From: Chloroflexota bacterium
GTDB lineage: Bacteria; Chloroflexota; Anaerolineae; B4-G1
Reading direction: 5' to 3'
Assembly: GCA_012514315.1 (NCBI GenBank)
Contig: JAAZAN010000006.1
Coordinates: forward strand, 1 to 64,000
DNA: 64,000 bases
The notes beneath the pieces were generated by a model. It saw nothing but the letters and a program-made list of their open reading frames with translations. It made no database searches and was not told the DNA's origin. This document shows, piece after piece, positions 29,138-34,859 of the stretch (the first letter of the stretch is position 1; every line of letters starts with the position of its first letter). The translations under genes were made by a program, and so were the position numbers.

Positions 29138-30010
29138 ATGTCGGACAGTAGCGTTAGAATCGGGGTAATTGGAGGATCGGGTCTCTACGCGATGGAAGGC
29201 CTTCAGGAAGTCGAGGAACATCGCATCCAGACGCCCTTCGGAGATCCATCGGACGACATTGTCGTCGGCGCCCTCGAGGGGGTCAGGGTTGCGTTCCTGG
29301 CGCGGCACGGACGGGGACACCGGATTCTGCCCACTGAAGTGAACTCTCGCGCCAACATCTACGCGCTCAAGACGCTGGGAGTCGAACAGGTGATCTCGGT
29401 GTCGGCGTGTGGTTCACTCCGCGAGCACTTGCACCCGGGGGAGGTCGTTGTTCCAGATCAGCTGTTCGATTTCACCAAGAGGCGCCCCAACACCTTCTTT
29501 GGTGACGGGCTTGTCGCTCACGTGGGTGTCGCGGATCCATTCTGTGCGCGCCTCTCGGCGCTGGTCGTGAGTGCGGTACGCGAAGCAGGCGGCGTCGTGC
29601 ACACGGGCGGGCGATTCATTACGATCGAGGGGCCGCGCTTCTCGACTCGGGGAGAGAGCCACGTGTTTCGCGCCTGGGGCATGGACATCATTGGGATGAC
29701 GACATCGCCCGAGGCGTTCCTCGCTCGTGAGGCGGAGATGTGCTATGCCGTGATGGCTCACGTCACAGACTATGACGTGTGGCATGAGACGGAAGACCCA
29801 GTCAGTGTCGACGCGCTCCTGACCACGCTGGCGAACAACACAGCCGTGGCTCAGGAAGCCTTGCGGCTTCTGGCCAAGATGGGCGCCCAGGCGACCCGCC
29901 ACTGTGAGTGTGGTGCAGCTCTCTCTACAGCGTTGATTACTCAGCGTGATGCGATTCCGAACGCGGTGGTACGAGACCTGGCGCCGATAGTCGGCAAGTA
30001 CCTCACGTAG
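29138..30010 (+). CDS. mtnP: S-methyl-5'-thioadenosine phosphorylase
   Basis: A 290-residue member of the PNP/MTAP family. GVIGGSGLY begins the fold; TPFGDPSDDI, ARHGRGHRILPTEVNSRAN (phosphate site), FITIEGPRFSTRGES and GMTTSPEAFLAREAEMCY place it with MTAP rather than plain purine phosphorylase. It cleaves MTA to adenine and 5-methylthioribose-1-phosphate in methionine salvage. AAGGAGA (29124-29130) sits 7 bases before the ATG. Being 93 bases from the previous gene, it may have its own promoter. A MtaD-type MTA/SAH deaminase is encoded 2.8 kb away on the other strand. Confidence 0.92.
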   Translation: MSDSSVRIGVIGGSGLYAMEGLQEVEEHRIQTPFGDPSDDIVVGALEGVRVAFLARHGRGHRILPTEVNSRANIYALKTLGVEQVISVSACGSLREHLHPGEVVVPDQLFDFTKRRPNTFFGDGLVAHVGVADPFCARLSALVVSAVREAGGVVHTGGRFITIEGPRFSTRGESHVFRAWGMDIIGMTTSPEAFLAREAEMCYAVMAHVTDYDVWHETEDPVSVDALLTTLANNTAVAQEALRLLAKMGAQATRHCECGAALSTALITQRDAIPNAVVRDLAPIVGKYLT

Positions 30011-30038: not shown

Positions 30039-32768
30039 TTGCTACCGCGATCCGATGTAGTGCGACCCAAGAGGCTGCAGGCGTCTATTCGCCGCGTGGC
30101 CGACGCAGACTCCAACCAGCGCGAGAGATTCCTGCTCGGTCTCGTGTTGGCATTCGCGGTCACAGGCGCGCTTCTTCTCCGAGCGTGCGATGCAGCCCCC
30201 ACAATCTGCAATGCGTCCGTCTCTACGACCACAGCGGCGTTGATCGTCCTCCCGCTGACGATTTCGTTTGGCAGCCTGCATCTCGTTCTGTCGAGGCGAC
30301 TGCCTACCAGAGACCCGGTGATTCTGCCGTCGGCAGCTATGCTTACTGCCTTGGGGCTCCTGCTGGTCGCCAGACTCGCACCGAACTTCCTTCTGCGTCA
30401 GGTCGCCTGGGTCGTCATCTGTGCACTCGCACTGGGGTGCGTCTCCCTCATGGGCTCCGACCTGCGTTGGCTTCAGCGATTCCGTTACACCTGGCTACTT
30501 GGTGGCCTGGCGCTACTGGCTGCTACACTGGTGCTGGGTGTGAACCCTTCGGGATATGGGCCAAGACTGTGGCTTGGCCTCGGGACGCACTACTACTTCC
30601 AGCCGTCCGAGCTCCTTAAGCTACTCATGGTCGCGTATGTGGCATCCTACCTAAGCGACAAGCGCGAGCTGGTGGCTCAGCGGACCGAGTCCGGCGCTTC
30701 GAGGCTGGCGGTCCTGACCTACATTGGTCCGCTGGTGACGATGTTCGGCATCGCACTCGTGCTGCTCGCCTGGCAGCAGGATCTTGGCGCTGCGATGCTC
30801 TTCTTCTTCACCTTCCTGAGCATGTTCTACCTTGCGACCGATAGGTTAGGCTATATTGTGGTGGGCCTTGCGCTCTTCATCGCAGCAGGCGTGGCCGGAT
30901 ACTACCTCTCGGATCACGTTGCGTTGAGGGTCGATGCCTGGCTTAACCCGTGGCCTGATGCTGCTGACCGGGCCTACCAGATTGTCCAGTCCCTCCTCGC
31001 ATTCGGCGCCGGTAGGCTTCTCGGAACAGGTCTTGGCATGGGGGTCCCGACGTACATCCCCGCCGTTCACACGGACTTCTCGTTCGCAGCGATCGCGGAG
31101 GAGCTCGGACTTGCGGGGATAGTCGCCGTGATTGCGCTGTTCGGCATTATCACTGCGAGGGGGTTCCGGGCTGCCTCACGAACCCCAAGGCTTTATGAGC
31201 GACTGCTCGTGGCCGGTCTGACCTCCGGGATCGCCATCCAGGCTCTCACGATCATGGCCGGCAACGGCAAACTGGCACCAATAACGGGCGTGACGCTCCC
31301 CTTTGTCTCGTATGGGGGTAGCTCCTTATTGATCACGTCCATAGCGCTTGGCCTCGTGCTGCGCGTTTCCGGTGAACAACGCTCAGTTGGCAGGCCCGAG
31401 CATGTCGCGGCGGGGAGCCTTCCGATTCGCGGTCTGGCGCGCTTCCTGCTGGCCCTGTTCGGTCTGGTTGCCCTGGGGTCTGGCTATTGGGCCTATGTCA
31501 GGTCAGATGCACTGTGGCTCCGCCCGGACAATCCGAGGCGAGTTCTCTCACAGCAACGAGTTGTTCGTGGGGCCATTCTGGGCAGCGATGGGACCGAGCT
31601 GGCTGGGGCCCAGGTGGACACCGATGGCCTGGTGACACGAACCTACCTGGTGCCCGAGGCCGCGCCTGTGGTCGGCTACTACAGCCTGCGATATGGGACC
31701 AGTGGCATCGAGGCCACCTATGACCCTGTTCTGACGGGTACTGAGGATGAATTGGTCCTGCTCAGAGTGTGGCGTGATCTCCGGCGCCTCCCGGTTCGCG
31801 GGCGTGGTGTTCAACTCACGCTGGACCCTGATCTTCAGACCGAGGCTCAACGAGCGTTGCAGGGTAGATCTGGGGCGGCGATTGTGATGGATGCACGGAC
31901 CGGCGCGCTCCTGGCAATGGCATCGAGCCCTACCTTCGATGCTCGGTCCCTCGACGAGAGCTGGGCAGGTCTGGTCGAAGATTCTCAATCGCCTCTGGTG
32001 AACCGGGCGACACAAGGGTTGTATCAGCCGGGCACACTGGTGCAGACATACCTGCTGGCCGAAGCGCTCACCGACGGCTTGGTCACGCTCGAATCGGCAG
32101 TCGCTGGTGCGACAGACCCTCTGTCAATCAACGGGACGTCTGTGAGATGTCTGCAGGTCCCGAGTGAGACCACAGTGGCGGGGGCCTATGCCTCTGGTTG
32201 CCCTGCGTTGGCGGCGGAGCTAGGCACGGAACTGGGCGCAGGCGGCATCCGGCGGGCGCTCGAGCGATGGCATTTGACGAGAGCTCCAGCCGTTGACGGG
32301 CTGCTCACCGACGGGCCAGAGTGGCGGGACGACGAATTCCTAGACAGCCATTCCATCAAGCTCGAGGCAGTCGGTCAGGGTGACCTTACGGTATCGCCAT
32401 TACAGGTCTCGCTCGCCGTTGCTGCGTTGGCCAATGGGGGTGAGATGCCGCAGGTCCATGTCGTCGATCGGGTCGAGGAGTCTCCTGGCATCTGGCGCCG
32501 GCTTGAGCCCAACGTAGCGACCCGGGCGGTTGCATCTCAGGGGTCGACCCGTGAGGTGCTGCAGCTCTGGGAGACGGATGGTTCGCTCATATTTCGGACC
32601 GATGTAGCCATCGCGGGGCATCAACGGATGATGCACACGTGGTTCTCAGGCATCCTGGGTGTCCGCGACGCCCCCCCCCTTGTCTGTGTTGTTCTTCTCG
32701 AACACACGGCTGCGACTCGGGACGCTTACGAGATCGGCCGTCACCTGCTTGGGTTGCTCGCAGACTGA
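30039..32768 (+). CDS. SEDS (FtsW/RodA) protein fused to a degenerate class B PBP domain
   Basis: A 909-residue protein. Residues 30-445 are a SEDS peptidoglycan polymerase: GVNPSGYGPRLWLGL, FQPSELLKL, WQQDLGAAMLF, NPWPDAADRAYQIVQSLLAF with the catalytic-type Asp307, HTDFSFAAIAEELG and PFVSYGGSSL. A further membrane helix (about 466-486) leads to a class B penicillin-binding transpeptidase-like domain (590-909). All three catalytic motifs of that domain are lost: the SxxK position reads TLVQ (Thr666, Gln669), SxN reads GCP (720-722), and KTG is replaced by HQR near 861. So polymerase function looks intact and transpeptidation absent. TTG start with AGGGGA 8 bases upstream. Confidence 0.9.
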   Translation: MLPRSDVVRPKRLQASIRRVADADSNQRERFLLGLVLAFAVTGALLLRACDAAPTICNASVSTTTAALIVLPLTISFGSLHLVLSRRLPTRDPVILPSAAMLTALGLLLVARLAPNFLLRQVAWVVICALALGCVSLMGSDLRWLQRFRYTWLLGGLALLAATLVLGVNPSGYGPRLWLGLGTHYYFQPSELLKLLMVAYVASYLSDKRELVAQRTESGASRLAVLTYIGPLVTMFGIALVLLAWQQDLGAAMLFFFTFLSMFYLATDRLGYIVVGLALFIAAGVAGYYLSDHVALRVDAWLNPWPDAADRAYQIVQSLLAFGAGRLLGTGLGMGVPTYIPAVHTDFSFAAIAEELGLAGIVAVIALFGIITARGFRAASRTPRLYERLLVAGLTSGIAIQALTIMAGNGKLAPITGVTLPFVSYGGSSLLITSIALGLVLRVSGEQRSVGRPEHVAAGSLPIRGLARFLLALFGLVALGSGYWAYVRSDALWLRPDNPRRVLSQQRVVRGAILGSDGTELAGAQVDTDGLVTRTYLVPEAAPVVGYYSLRYGTSGIEATYDPVLTGTEDELVLLRVWRDLRRLPVRGRGVQLTLDPDLQTEAQRALQGRSGAAIVMDARTGALLAMASSPTFDARSLDESWAGLVEDSQSPLVNRATQGLYQPGTLVQTYLLAEALTDGLVTLESAVAGATDPLSINGTSVRCLQVPSETTVAGAYASGCPALAAELGTELGAGGIRRALERWHLTRAPAVDGLLTDGPEWRDDEFLDSHSIKLEAVGQGDLTVSPLQVSLAVAALANGGEMPQVHVVDRVEESPGIWRRLEPNVATRAVASQGSTREVLQLWETDGSLIFRTDVAIAGHQRMMHTWFSGILGVRDAPPLVCVVLLEHTAATRDAYEIGRHLLGLLAD

Positions 32769-32801: not shown

Positions 32802-34823
32802 CTAGCTCTCATTTCGGGAATCCGGCGCTCCCACAACACGGCCCAGAACCAGGTCCGGGTACTCCTCCTTAACCGGCTGCATATGCGTCAACGCAAGCGA
32901 ATGCAGAAGCTCGCCGATGAGTGCTGCCTTGCGCTCCGCGTCCTGGCTGGACCATGTGCGACTCTTGATCTCCAGGAAATGCGTGGACCAGCTCGGCTGG
33001 ATGATCTGGTCAATGTTGAGCGCGAACGCGGTACCCCCAAAACGAATGTGGTACCTGCGCCGCCGCTTCGAGACCTCGACCGTCTGAGCCGGGTCGAAGT
33101 ACTCCTTGTAGAACCTCAGGCTGTGAGTGGCGGGAGCATCGTATCGTGACTGGCTGAGAATGACCAGATTGTCGTACTCGCGTTCCCTGATGGAGCCCGT
33201 AAGAGTCAGCCGATACTCCACGCTCTCGACGTGTTCGCCATCCGACGAGAGAACCTCATCCTCCCGATATCGAATCCGGCTGTGGTCCACATCATCGAGG
33301 ATCAGGTAGGCGTCGTACTGGCGTCTGACGCTGGATCGCACCACCGCCAGTAACCCACTCTCGATCGCATCTTCCACGGAGCTCAGATCGTCCGCGGAGA
33401 GCTGTACCTTGACCTGCACCTCGAAGGCGCGTCCCTGCGAGACATCGCTAAGGGCCAGGAGCTTGCTCAGTATGCTTTCCTCACGCGCCACAATGAATGA
33501 GCTCACCTTGTTGGCAACGCGCTGCGCCTCTCTGCGTGCGTACTCAGTGTCCACAGTCAGTACTTGCCGATCCCGCATGAGCCAGCGACCGTGACACAGA
33601 ACGTGCAGAATATCGGCGCTCTTGGCTCCGTAGACGATCAGCGCATAGATGCTCGACGCAGTGTCATCAAATCGCGGAGTCAGGTGAACTGTATTGAGAT
33701 CAATGACGGCCAGATCGGCTCGCTTTCCGATCTCAATCGAGCCAGTGATCTGATCCAGGCCAAGGGCTCTTGCTCCCATGGTCGTCGCCATCTCAAGTGC
33801 CTGTTGAGCTGAGACCGCGGTTGGATCACCGGTGATGCCCTTAGCGAGCAGCGCGGCCAGCCTCGTCTCTTCAAGTATGTCCAGATCATTGTTGCTTGCA
33901 CTCCCATCGGTTCCAATGCCGACCGGAATGCCGAGTTCGAGCATCCGGGTCACCGGAGCGAATCCGCTGGCAAGCTTGAGATTGCTTGTGGGACTGTGTA
34001 CGACACCCACGTCGTGGTGAAGCAGCGTGTACAACTCACCCTCATCCAGATGGACACAGTGGGCAGCGGTTACGCGCGCTCCAAACAGTCCCTGCTTCTT
34101 CACCCAGGGTACCACAGGCATGCCGTACTCCGCGCGCTGTCTGGCGACTTCCTCGGCCGTCTCCGCTATGTGGATGTGAATGGGGACATCCTCAGCAAGC
34201 GCTAACTGGGCGCAGTCTTGAAGCATCTCGACCGTCGAGGTGTATGCTGCGTGAGGGCCGACCGCAGGGGTGATCAGCTCGTGTCCCTTCCACCGCGTAA
34301 CAAAATCCCTGGTCAGTTCCAGTGCTTGATCGTAACTCCCGGCATCGGGCGTGGCGAACTTCAGTATCGATTGGGCGCAGACCGCCCGCATGCCAGCCTG
34401 GGCCGCCGAATCTGCAACGGTCTCCTCGAAGTAGTACATGTCACCAAAGCAGGTGACCCCGGACTGGATCATCTCAGCACACGCCAGCTGCGTTCCAAGC
34501 CAACAGAAGTCGGGACGCACGAACTCGCGTTCTGCGGGCATCATATACCCAACCAACCAGACATCGAGCCGCAGGTCATTCGCCAGTCCTCGCAGAAGCG
34601 TCATCGGCGCGTGTGTGTGACCGTTGATCAGACCAGGGATCACCGCGCATCCGCTGCAGGTCAACTCCTCAGCGCCCTGGTACTCGCGCACGACCTCCCG
34701 CTCCGGGCCCACCGCGACGATGGAGTTCCCGGAGACAGCTACCGCTCCCGGCGTGTAGACGTTTCCGGCGCCATCCATCGTGACGACTGTGCCGCCCAGC
34801 AGGACGAGATCAGCTTGAGCCAT
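32802..34823 (-). CDS. MTA/SAH deaminase (MtaD-like) fused to a C-terminal CYTH-like domain
   Basis: A 673-residue protein. Residues 1-435 are a cytosine-deaminase-like amidohydrolase of the MtaD/SsnA group: INGHTHAPMTLLRG (metal HxH), HIHIAETAEE, TAAHCVHLDEGE, VHSPTSNLKLASG and GTDGSASNNDLD. MtaD deaminates methylthioadenosine or S-adenosylhomocysteine. Residues about 464-650 resemble a CYTH/triphosphate-tunnel domain: FEVQVKVQL (E-x-Q-x-K in place of ExExK), RIRYRED, VEYRLTLTG, SKRRRRYHIRFGG and THFLEIKSRTW. ATG 34823 is chosen because GGAGGG lies 4 bases upstream, within the promoter-defined transcript. It is convergent with the SEDS gene, 33 bases apart. Confidence 0.85.
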   Translation of the reverse strand: MAQADLVLLGGTVVTMDGAGNVYTPGAVAVSGNSIVAVGPEREVVREYQGAEELTCSGCAVIPGLINGHTHAPMTLLRGLANDLRLDVWLVGYMMPAEREFVRPDFCWLGTQLACAEMIQSGVTCFGDMYYFEETVADSAAQAGMRAVCAQSILKFATPDAGSYDQALELTRDFVTRWKGHELITPAVGPHAAYTSTVEMLQDCAQLALAEDVPIHIHIAETAEEVARQRAEYGMPVVPWVKKQGLFGARVTAAHCVHLDEGELYTLLHHDVGVVHSPTSNLKLASGFAPVTRMLELGIPVGIGTDGSASNNDLDILEETRLAALLAKGITGDPTAVSAQQALEMATTMGARALGLDQITGSIEIGKRADLAVIDLNTVHLTPRFDDTASSIYALIVYGAKSADILHVLCHGRWLMRDRQVLTVDTEYARREAQRVANKVSSFIVAREESILSKLLALSDVSQGRAFEVQVKVQLSADDLSSVEDAIESGLLAVVRSSVRRQYDAYLILDDVDHSRIRYREDEVLSSDGEHVESVEYRLTLTGSIREREYDNLVILSQSRYDAPATHSLRFYKEYFDPAQTVEVSKRRRRYHIRFGGTAFALNIDQIIQPSWSTHFLEIKSRTWSSQDAERKAALIGELLHSLALTHMQPVKEEYPDLVLGRVVGAPDSRNES

Positions 34824-34859
34824 TGGCCCTCCTCGAGTGAATCGTGCGAGTATCGTTGG

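Follow-up and report, generated by a model that had tools for sequence, protein, structure and literature searches.

A CYTH-type triphosphate-tunnel domain lacking two of three catalytic metal-2 ligands is fused to a predicted MTA/SAH-type deaminase in Chloroflexota

What does a triphosphate-tunnel domain do at the end of a nucleoside deaminase? The question is raised by one gene in the window, by which we mean the whole stretch of 64,000 nucleotides analysed here, taken from a Chloroflexota bacterium of the Anaerolineae (assembly GCA_012514315.1, contig JAAZAN010000006.1, positions 1 to 64,000). To our knowledge, CYTH domains are widespread and their cellular roles largely unknown. The first-pass annotation, made from the letters alone, had proposed a complete MtaD-like amidohydrolase followed by a CYTH-like domain in a single polypeptide, and this architecture was borne out: an open frame of 673 residues, read from 34823 to 32802 and starting MAQADLV, encodes both parts, with Amidohydro_1 matching the N-terminal domain at 3e-69 (Pfam), and full-length fusion homologues of about 655-720 residues occur in Chloroflexota. 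All of the motifs it had quoted were found in the translation (E468-x-Q470-x-K472, RIRYRED at 516-522, SKRRRR at 585-590 and THFLEIKS at 614-621), and, judged on the homologue alignment, their conservation is far beyond chance, 14 positions being identical in 92/92 homologues. The gene and its parts are as follows.

32802..34823, minus strand: fusion gene, MtaD-type deaminase plus CYTH-type domain, 673 residues (open frame and translation; full-length Chloroflexota homologues).
34827..34834, minus strand: Shine-Dalgarno-like GAGGAGG(G), just 5' of the ATG at 34823 (read from the sequence).
33501..34823, minus strand: residues 1-441, amidohydrolase of the MTA/SAH-deaminase type (Amidohydro_1, PRK09045, 4f0r, metal ligands in 92/92, Foldseek).
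33435..33500, minus strand: residues 442-463, linker (AlphaFold full-length model).
32844..33434, minus strand: residues 464-660 (approximately), domain of the CYTH/triphosphate-tunnel fold (model, Foldseek, PF01928, hhalign).

The N-terminal half is predicted to be a zinc-type deaminase of SAM-derived nucleosides, that is, of MTA, SAH or 5'-deoxyadenosine. Its best NCBIfam model was PRK09045, of the MTA/SAH-deaminase group, at 451.5 bits, which lies below the cut-off of that model (540). The nearest solved structure by sequence was the MTA/SAH deaminase 4f0r (3.8e-92), and a Foldseek search with the full-length model ranked 3lnp, 4f0r and 4dyk first. The amidohydrolase metal ligands HxH, H, E, H and D are all present as H69, H71, H218, E221, H255 and D306 and are kept in 92/92 homologues. 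Residues 1-441 align over nearly the full length with known MTA/SAH deaminases (the PRK09045 group; 4f0r/4f0s from Chromobacterium, 4dyk/4gbd from Pseudomonas, and TM0936) and share their metal ligands, but those enzymes stop near residue 440-450, whereas the window protein runs on for about 230 residues. In the full-length AlphaFold model a predicted helix (residues 426-460) bridges the two domains; confidence is low at the linker (447-465) and in parts of the barrel, because the model was built from eight sequences only. Within the linker region, F443, R447, E448 and K454 are conserved in the homologue alignment.

Other enzymes for the same by-products accompany the fusion. MTA phosphorylase and SAH hydrolase scored over their curated cut-offs in 10/10 fusion-bearing genomes tested, and MTA/SAH nucleosidase scored over its cut-off in 0/10. 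The deaminase is therefore not the sole route for MTA or SAH in these genomes, so a deaminase that needs control is plausible, and its specific role may be in 5'-deoxyadenosine or in a regulated branch.

Searched on its own, the C-terminal domain of the window gave no sequence match in Pfam, NCBIfam or the PDB, and PDB searches with profiles or with a homologue of the domain likewise gave no match. The window copy being silent, CYTH cannot be called from the single sequence, and homologues, profile comparison and structure are needed. An AlphaFold model of the domain, built from eight sequences, reached a mean pLDDT of 79.6, mostly 80-95 in the barrel, and predicted an eight-stranded tunnel with a C-terminal helix, the elements running strand-helix-seven strands-helix, which is the triphosphate-tunnel order. 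Its best Foldseek match was the Sulfolobus tunnel enzyme 7ns9 (6.9e-8), and VIA-align gave Z scores of 19.1 to 2een (170 residues, 2.2 Å; the best), 17.5 to 7ns9 and 15.7 to Arabidopsis TTM1. The Pfam CYTH model PF01928 matched 30 of 53 homologous C-terminal domains (best 6.4e-9), though not the window copy itself, and rose above the Pfam cut-off at five fusion C-terminal domains when 81 Chloroflexota genomes were scanned. Comparison of the domain profile with canonical Chloroflexota CYTH proteins by hhalign gave a probability of 96% and an E value of 2.8e-9. Taken together, three independent lines, the model, the Pfam matches in homologues and the profile comparison, indicate that residues ~464-660 adopt the CYTH/triphosphate-tunnel fold, in agreement with the CYTH-like reading proposed earlier.

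We then counted residue conservation over 92 aligned full-length homologues and mapped it onto 26 canonical CYTH sequences from the same phylum; these had been chosen by E.E.K and R.R, so that those columns are invariant by construction and the others are unselected. Identical in 92/92 were E468, Q470, D504, Y506, R518, R520, E521, R570, K586, R588, R590, N603, D605 and E618, while K472, R560 and K620 were identical in 91/92. The strands that carry them are listed below.

33408..33422, minus strand: residues 468-472, E-V-Q-V-K, ExQxK replacing ExExK (E 92/92, Q 92/92, K 91/92).
33306..33314, minus strand: residues 504-506, D-A-Y, the DxY motif (D and Y 92/92).
33258..33272, minus strand: residues 518-522, R-Y-R-E-D, predicted phosphate-binding R-x-R strand (R518 and R520 92/92; they align to CYTH R59/R61).
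33144..33152, minus strand: residues 558-560, (R/Q)-S-R, replacing the acidic R-x-E-x-E strand (R560 91/92; E in canonical CYTH).
33054..33068, minus strand: residues 586-590, K-R-R-R-R, the K-x-R-x-R basic strand (K586, R588 and R590 92/92; R588 aligns to the invariant CYTH R).
33009..33017, minus strand: residues 603-605, N-I-D, the N-x-D strand (92/92; D occupies the column of the invariant CYTH D).
32964..32972, minus strand: residues 618-620, E-I-K, ExK replacing ExE (E618 92/92, K620 91/92; the canonical column is E in 26/26).
32937..32963, minus strand: residues 621-629, SRTWSSQDA, family-specific signature running into the C-terminal helix (R622, W624 and S625 91/92, D628 92/92).

Whether the tunnel residues are kept in homologues, a check that had been suggested for the CYTH claim, thus has a divided answer. 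The metal-1 Glu, R-x-R, DxY (a motif associated in SaTTM with a phosphate-bound water; PMC8233210) and K-x-R-x-R are retained, whereas ExExK, ExE and the acidic strand are replaced. At residues 618-620 the metal-1 Glu is kept and the metal-2 Glu is a Lys, and the TLK lysine of canonical CYTH proteins is replaced by T, I, M, V or L in the fusion homologues. The near-invariant SRTWSxxDA signature has no counterpart in the canonical CYTH columns.

The hallmark of CYTH proteins is ExExK on strand 1, and their triphosphatases use ExE on strand 8 for metals 1 and 2; the fusion domain has neither. In E. coli ygiF, three glutamates (Glu4, Glu6 and Glu162) coordinate metal 2, the water-activating one, and hydrolysis suffers when tunnel glutamates are mutated (PMC4641920). 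Since Q470 (92/92) and K620 (91/92) replace two of the three metal-2 ligands, the two-metal hydrolysis site appears to be gone while the anion-binding residues remain, and canonical triphosphate hydrolysis by the domain is, on these residues, unlikely. With the metal-1 Glu, R-x-R, K-x-R and DxY retained in all 92 homologues, selection on the tunnel is evidently strong, and the tunnel is no decaying relic.

Class IV adenylyl cyclases (CyaB) are recognized by HFxxxxExExK, by R-x-R with its first Arg exchanged for a small residue, and by an Ala in ExE (PMC8233210). The fusion domain does not show this signature: it keeps R518 and R520 in 92/92 homologues, has Lys at the second ExE position and lacks ExExK.

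Among solved relatives, the canonical CYTH tripolyphosphatases (SaTTM 7ns9, E. coli ygiF 5a60, AtTTM3) share with the fusion domain the eight-strand tunnel and C-terminal helix, R-x-R, K-x-R, DxY and the metal-1 Glu; they differ from it in ExExK (here ExQxK), ExE (here ExK), the acidic R-x-E strand (here R-x-R) and the TLK lysine (here lost). Plant TTM1/TTM2 (7z67; Z 15.7) are likewise CYTH barrels without ExExK and ExE placed C-terminal to another enzyme domain (PMC8233210), but there the barrel is joined to a P-loop (phosphoribulokinase-type) kinase in place of a deaminase, and sequence identity is ~12%. The Vtc4 polyphosphate polymerase has one metal site and basic residues replacing the acidic patch (PMC4641920); in contrast to the fusion domain, which keeps E468, it has other partner domains, and no sequence match to it was found. 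CYTH-CHAD proteins of the ygiF type, which occur in this phylum too (L118, L123), also hold CYTH in a two-domain protein but have a canonical active site, an N-terminal CYTH domain and CHAD as partner. Known CYTH fusions involve HD, exopolyphosphatase, kinase and CHAD domains (PMC8233210), and in the open literature searched we found no paper on a CYTH-amidohydrolase or CYTH-MTA-deaminase fusion.

The C-terminal domain was detected in 95/149 relatives, in about 89 of 400 genomes sampled across Chloroflexota (one chance match removed) and in 49/101 genomes of a second Chloroflexota class; carriers belong to Anaerolineae and to this second class, which includes Herpetosiphon aurantiacus. Almost all matches sit in open frames of ~660-720 residues that also encode the deaminase, and one genome (G436) holds the fusion twice (C53:23287-23889 and C121:16861-17451). 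The search for independent copies of the domain, which had also been suggested, yielded no genuine free-standing one among the Chloroflexota genomes searched. Short frames in G283 and G516 were rejected as such copies because their genes are cut by contig ends; those in G003, G029, G043 and G067 look like partial genes, contig ends having been checked for G283 and G516 only. A weak match in G354 (E 0.009) lies in an aldo/keto-reductase-type frame and was rejected as chance. Searches of plasmids, phages and viral contigs turned up no relative, and when GTDB as a whole was scanned with the one sequence from the window, using narrow patterns and no profile, only Chloroflexota records came back.

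Deaminase matches in 301 genomes split into two groups, fused at 444 bits or more and unfused at 289 bits or less, the lone intermediate match (362 bits) being the copy of G283 that is split over contigs. When 53 fused and 21 unfused deaminases were placed in a maximum-likelihood tree, one branch separated the two sets (support 100/99), and the divergence of the two halves was correlated (r = 0.82 over 4186 pairs). Given the single clade, the parallel divergence and the bit-score gap, a single, early origin of the fusion in Chloroflexota is most likely, and the fusion appears to have been undone in none of the genomes seen. On this sequence record the two-domain architecture is ancient and, within its carrier lineages, obligatory. 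A domain found only in fused form, r = 0.82 and one clade are as expected if both domains work on each other.

The tunnel is too conserved for a relic and unfit for two-metal hydrolysis, so that binding without hydrolysis is the simplest reading. The earlier suggestion had been a nucleotide-sensing or a bifunctional enzyme, and sensing or binding fits the retained and lost residues better. We hypothesize, with confidence a little short of even, that a non-hydrolysing, phosphate-ligand-binding CYTH module regulates the deamination of SAM-derived nucleosides, the ligand and the coupling being inferred. The barrel would bind an anionic phosphate ligand through R518, R520, K472, K586, R588, R590 and K620, and one metal held by E618 would accompany it; candidate ligands are ATP or another NTP, tripolyphosphate, pyrophosphate or polyphosphate. 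With no second, water-activating metal site to be built, the usual two-metal hydrolysis of the ligand would not take place. Its binding would instead switch the deaminase, or tune its activity, by way of the helix linker (426-460), and SAM by-product turnover would thereby be tied to nucleotide or phosphate status.

Loss of the motifs is no proof of lost catalysis, since AtTTM1/2, which lack ExExK and ExE, are reported to act on pyrophosphate (PMC8233210). The protein could accordingly be bifunctional, its CYTH-type domain hydrolysing a phosphate compound such as pyrophosphate (as plant TTM1/2) or tripolyphosphate by a one-metal or altered mechanism; the invariance of the metal-1 Glu, of R-x-R (with the equivalent of the ygiF catalytic Arg56), of K-x-R and of DxY is consistent with this. 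We consider it unlikely, given that two of the three metal-2 ligands are lost, one of them charge-reversed to Lys, that the TLK lysine is replaced and that hydrolysis by AtTTM3 and ygiF is impaired by mutating the first-strand Glu or the metal-1 Glu. The basic character of the tunnel also recalls Vtc4p, which lacks metal site 2 as well and has basic residues at the four-Glu acidic patch of hydrolytic tunnels (PMC4641920), and the patch positions of the fusion domain are two basic and one neutral. A transferase of this kind, building or extending polyphosphate from ATP beside the deaminase, is nevertheless highly improbable: the first Glu of the patch (E468) is still there, and a connection to nucleoside deamination is not obvious. 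No VTC chain appeared among the 50 best structural matches listed, which is not a test of kinship with Vtc4.

Two further explanations dispense with sensing. The barrel could have been recruited for oligomerisation or protein binding, with any ligand irrelevant, like the Mediator subunit Med18, whose barrels are among the structural matches; many non-tunnel residues (Y575, W624, D628) are conserved too. That charged tunnel residues, and not surface ones alone, are invariant across two bacterial classes makes such a docking role doubtful, slightly more so than hydrolysis by an altered mechanism. Alternatively, the domain could bind a substrate that is a charged nucleotide, such as an adenosine compound that is phosphorylated or linked to SAM, and hand it to the deaminase. 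Canonical tunnels can bind ATP (SaTTM-ATP structure 7nsd) and the deaminase group is known for adenosine derivatives, but the closest solved deaminases take uncharged nucleosides without such a domain and there is no sequence sign of a shared site; we regard this as improbable, if less so than a polyphosphate-building transferase.

Regulation by a bound phosphate ligand, if it holds throughout the family, would define a phylum-wide, ancient regulatory class of CYTH domains, in which a tunnel without the catalytic metal site senses nucleotide, tripolyphosphate or polyphosphate, gates the deamination of SAM by-products and couples one-carbon/SAM turnover to phosphate/energy status; we advance this broader proposal somewhat more cautiously than the regulatory reading itself. 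Across two Chloroflexota classes CYTH is locked onto a metabolic enzyme, its tunnel apparently kept for binding and not for canonical hydrolysis. The fusion offers a direct route to what a CYTH tunnel senses, deamination being a built-in readout, and its presence in a cultured organism, the type strain Herpetosiphon aurantiacus 114-95, makes tests practical; there the gene sits on the minus strand of the chromosome at about 6,199,370-6,201,337. If the reading is true, the fusion domain should not inherit database labels such as 'adenylate cyclase' or 'triphosphatase'.

The gene surroundings indicate no single ligand, as no neighbour is conserved across all fusion loci. A CoaE-like dephospho-CoA kinase lies directly 3' of the fusion gene in 11/63 loci; at L084-L094, in the second class, the CoaE-like gene is on the same strand and often overlaps, with spacings of -74 to +131 bases. 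CinA is upstream in 8/63 loci; at L033, L036, L037, L038 and L098 the CinA-type gene is 3 bases upstream of the fusion gene or overlaps it, and an inositol-monophosphatase-like gene then follows in four of these five. MTA phosphorylase is nearby in 5/63 loci, and in the window it lies 2.8 kb from the fusion gene (29138-30010; TIGR01694, 303 bits). The source genome also encodes, once, a canonical CYTH protein of 211 residues with ExExK and ExE intact (L001, C210:21718-22209). Finally, positions 30039-32768 of the window (plus strand) hold an FtsW/RodA-type flippase/polymerase and a PBP2-like transpeptidase in one frame (TIGR02614, 264 bits; TIGR03423, 130 bits). Its nucleophile motif is PGTLVQ, not PGSTxK, and no KTG was seen, so the transpeptidase part of this second fusion looks inactive.
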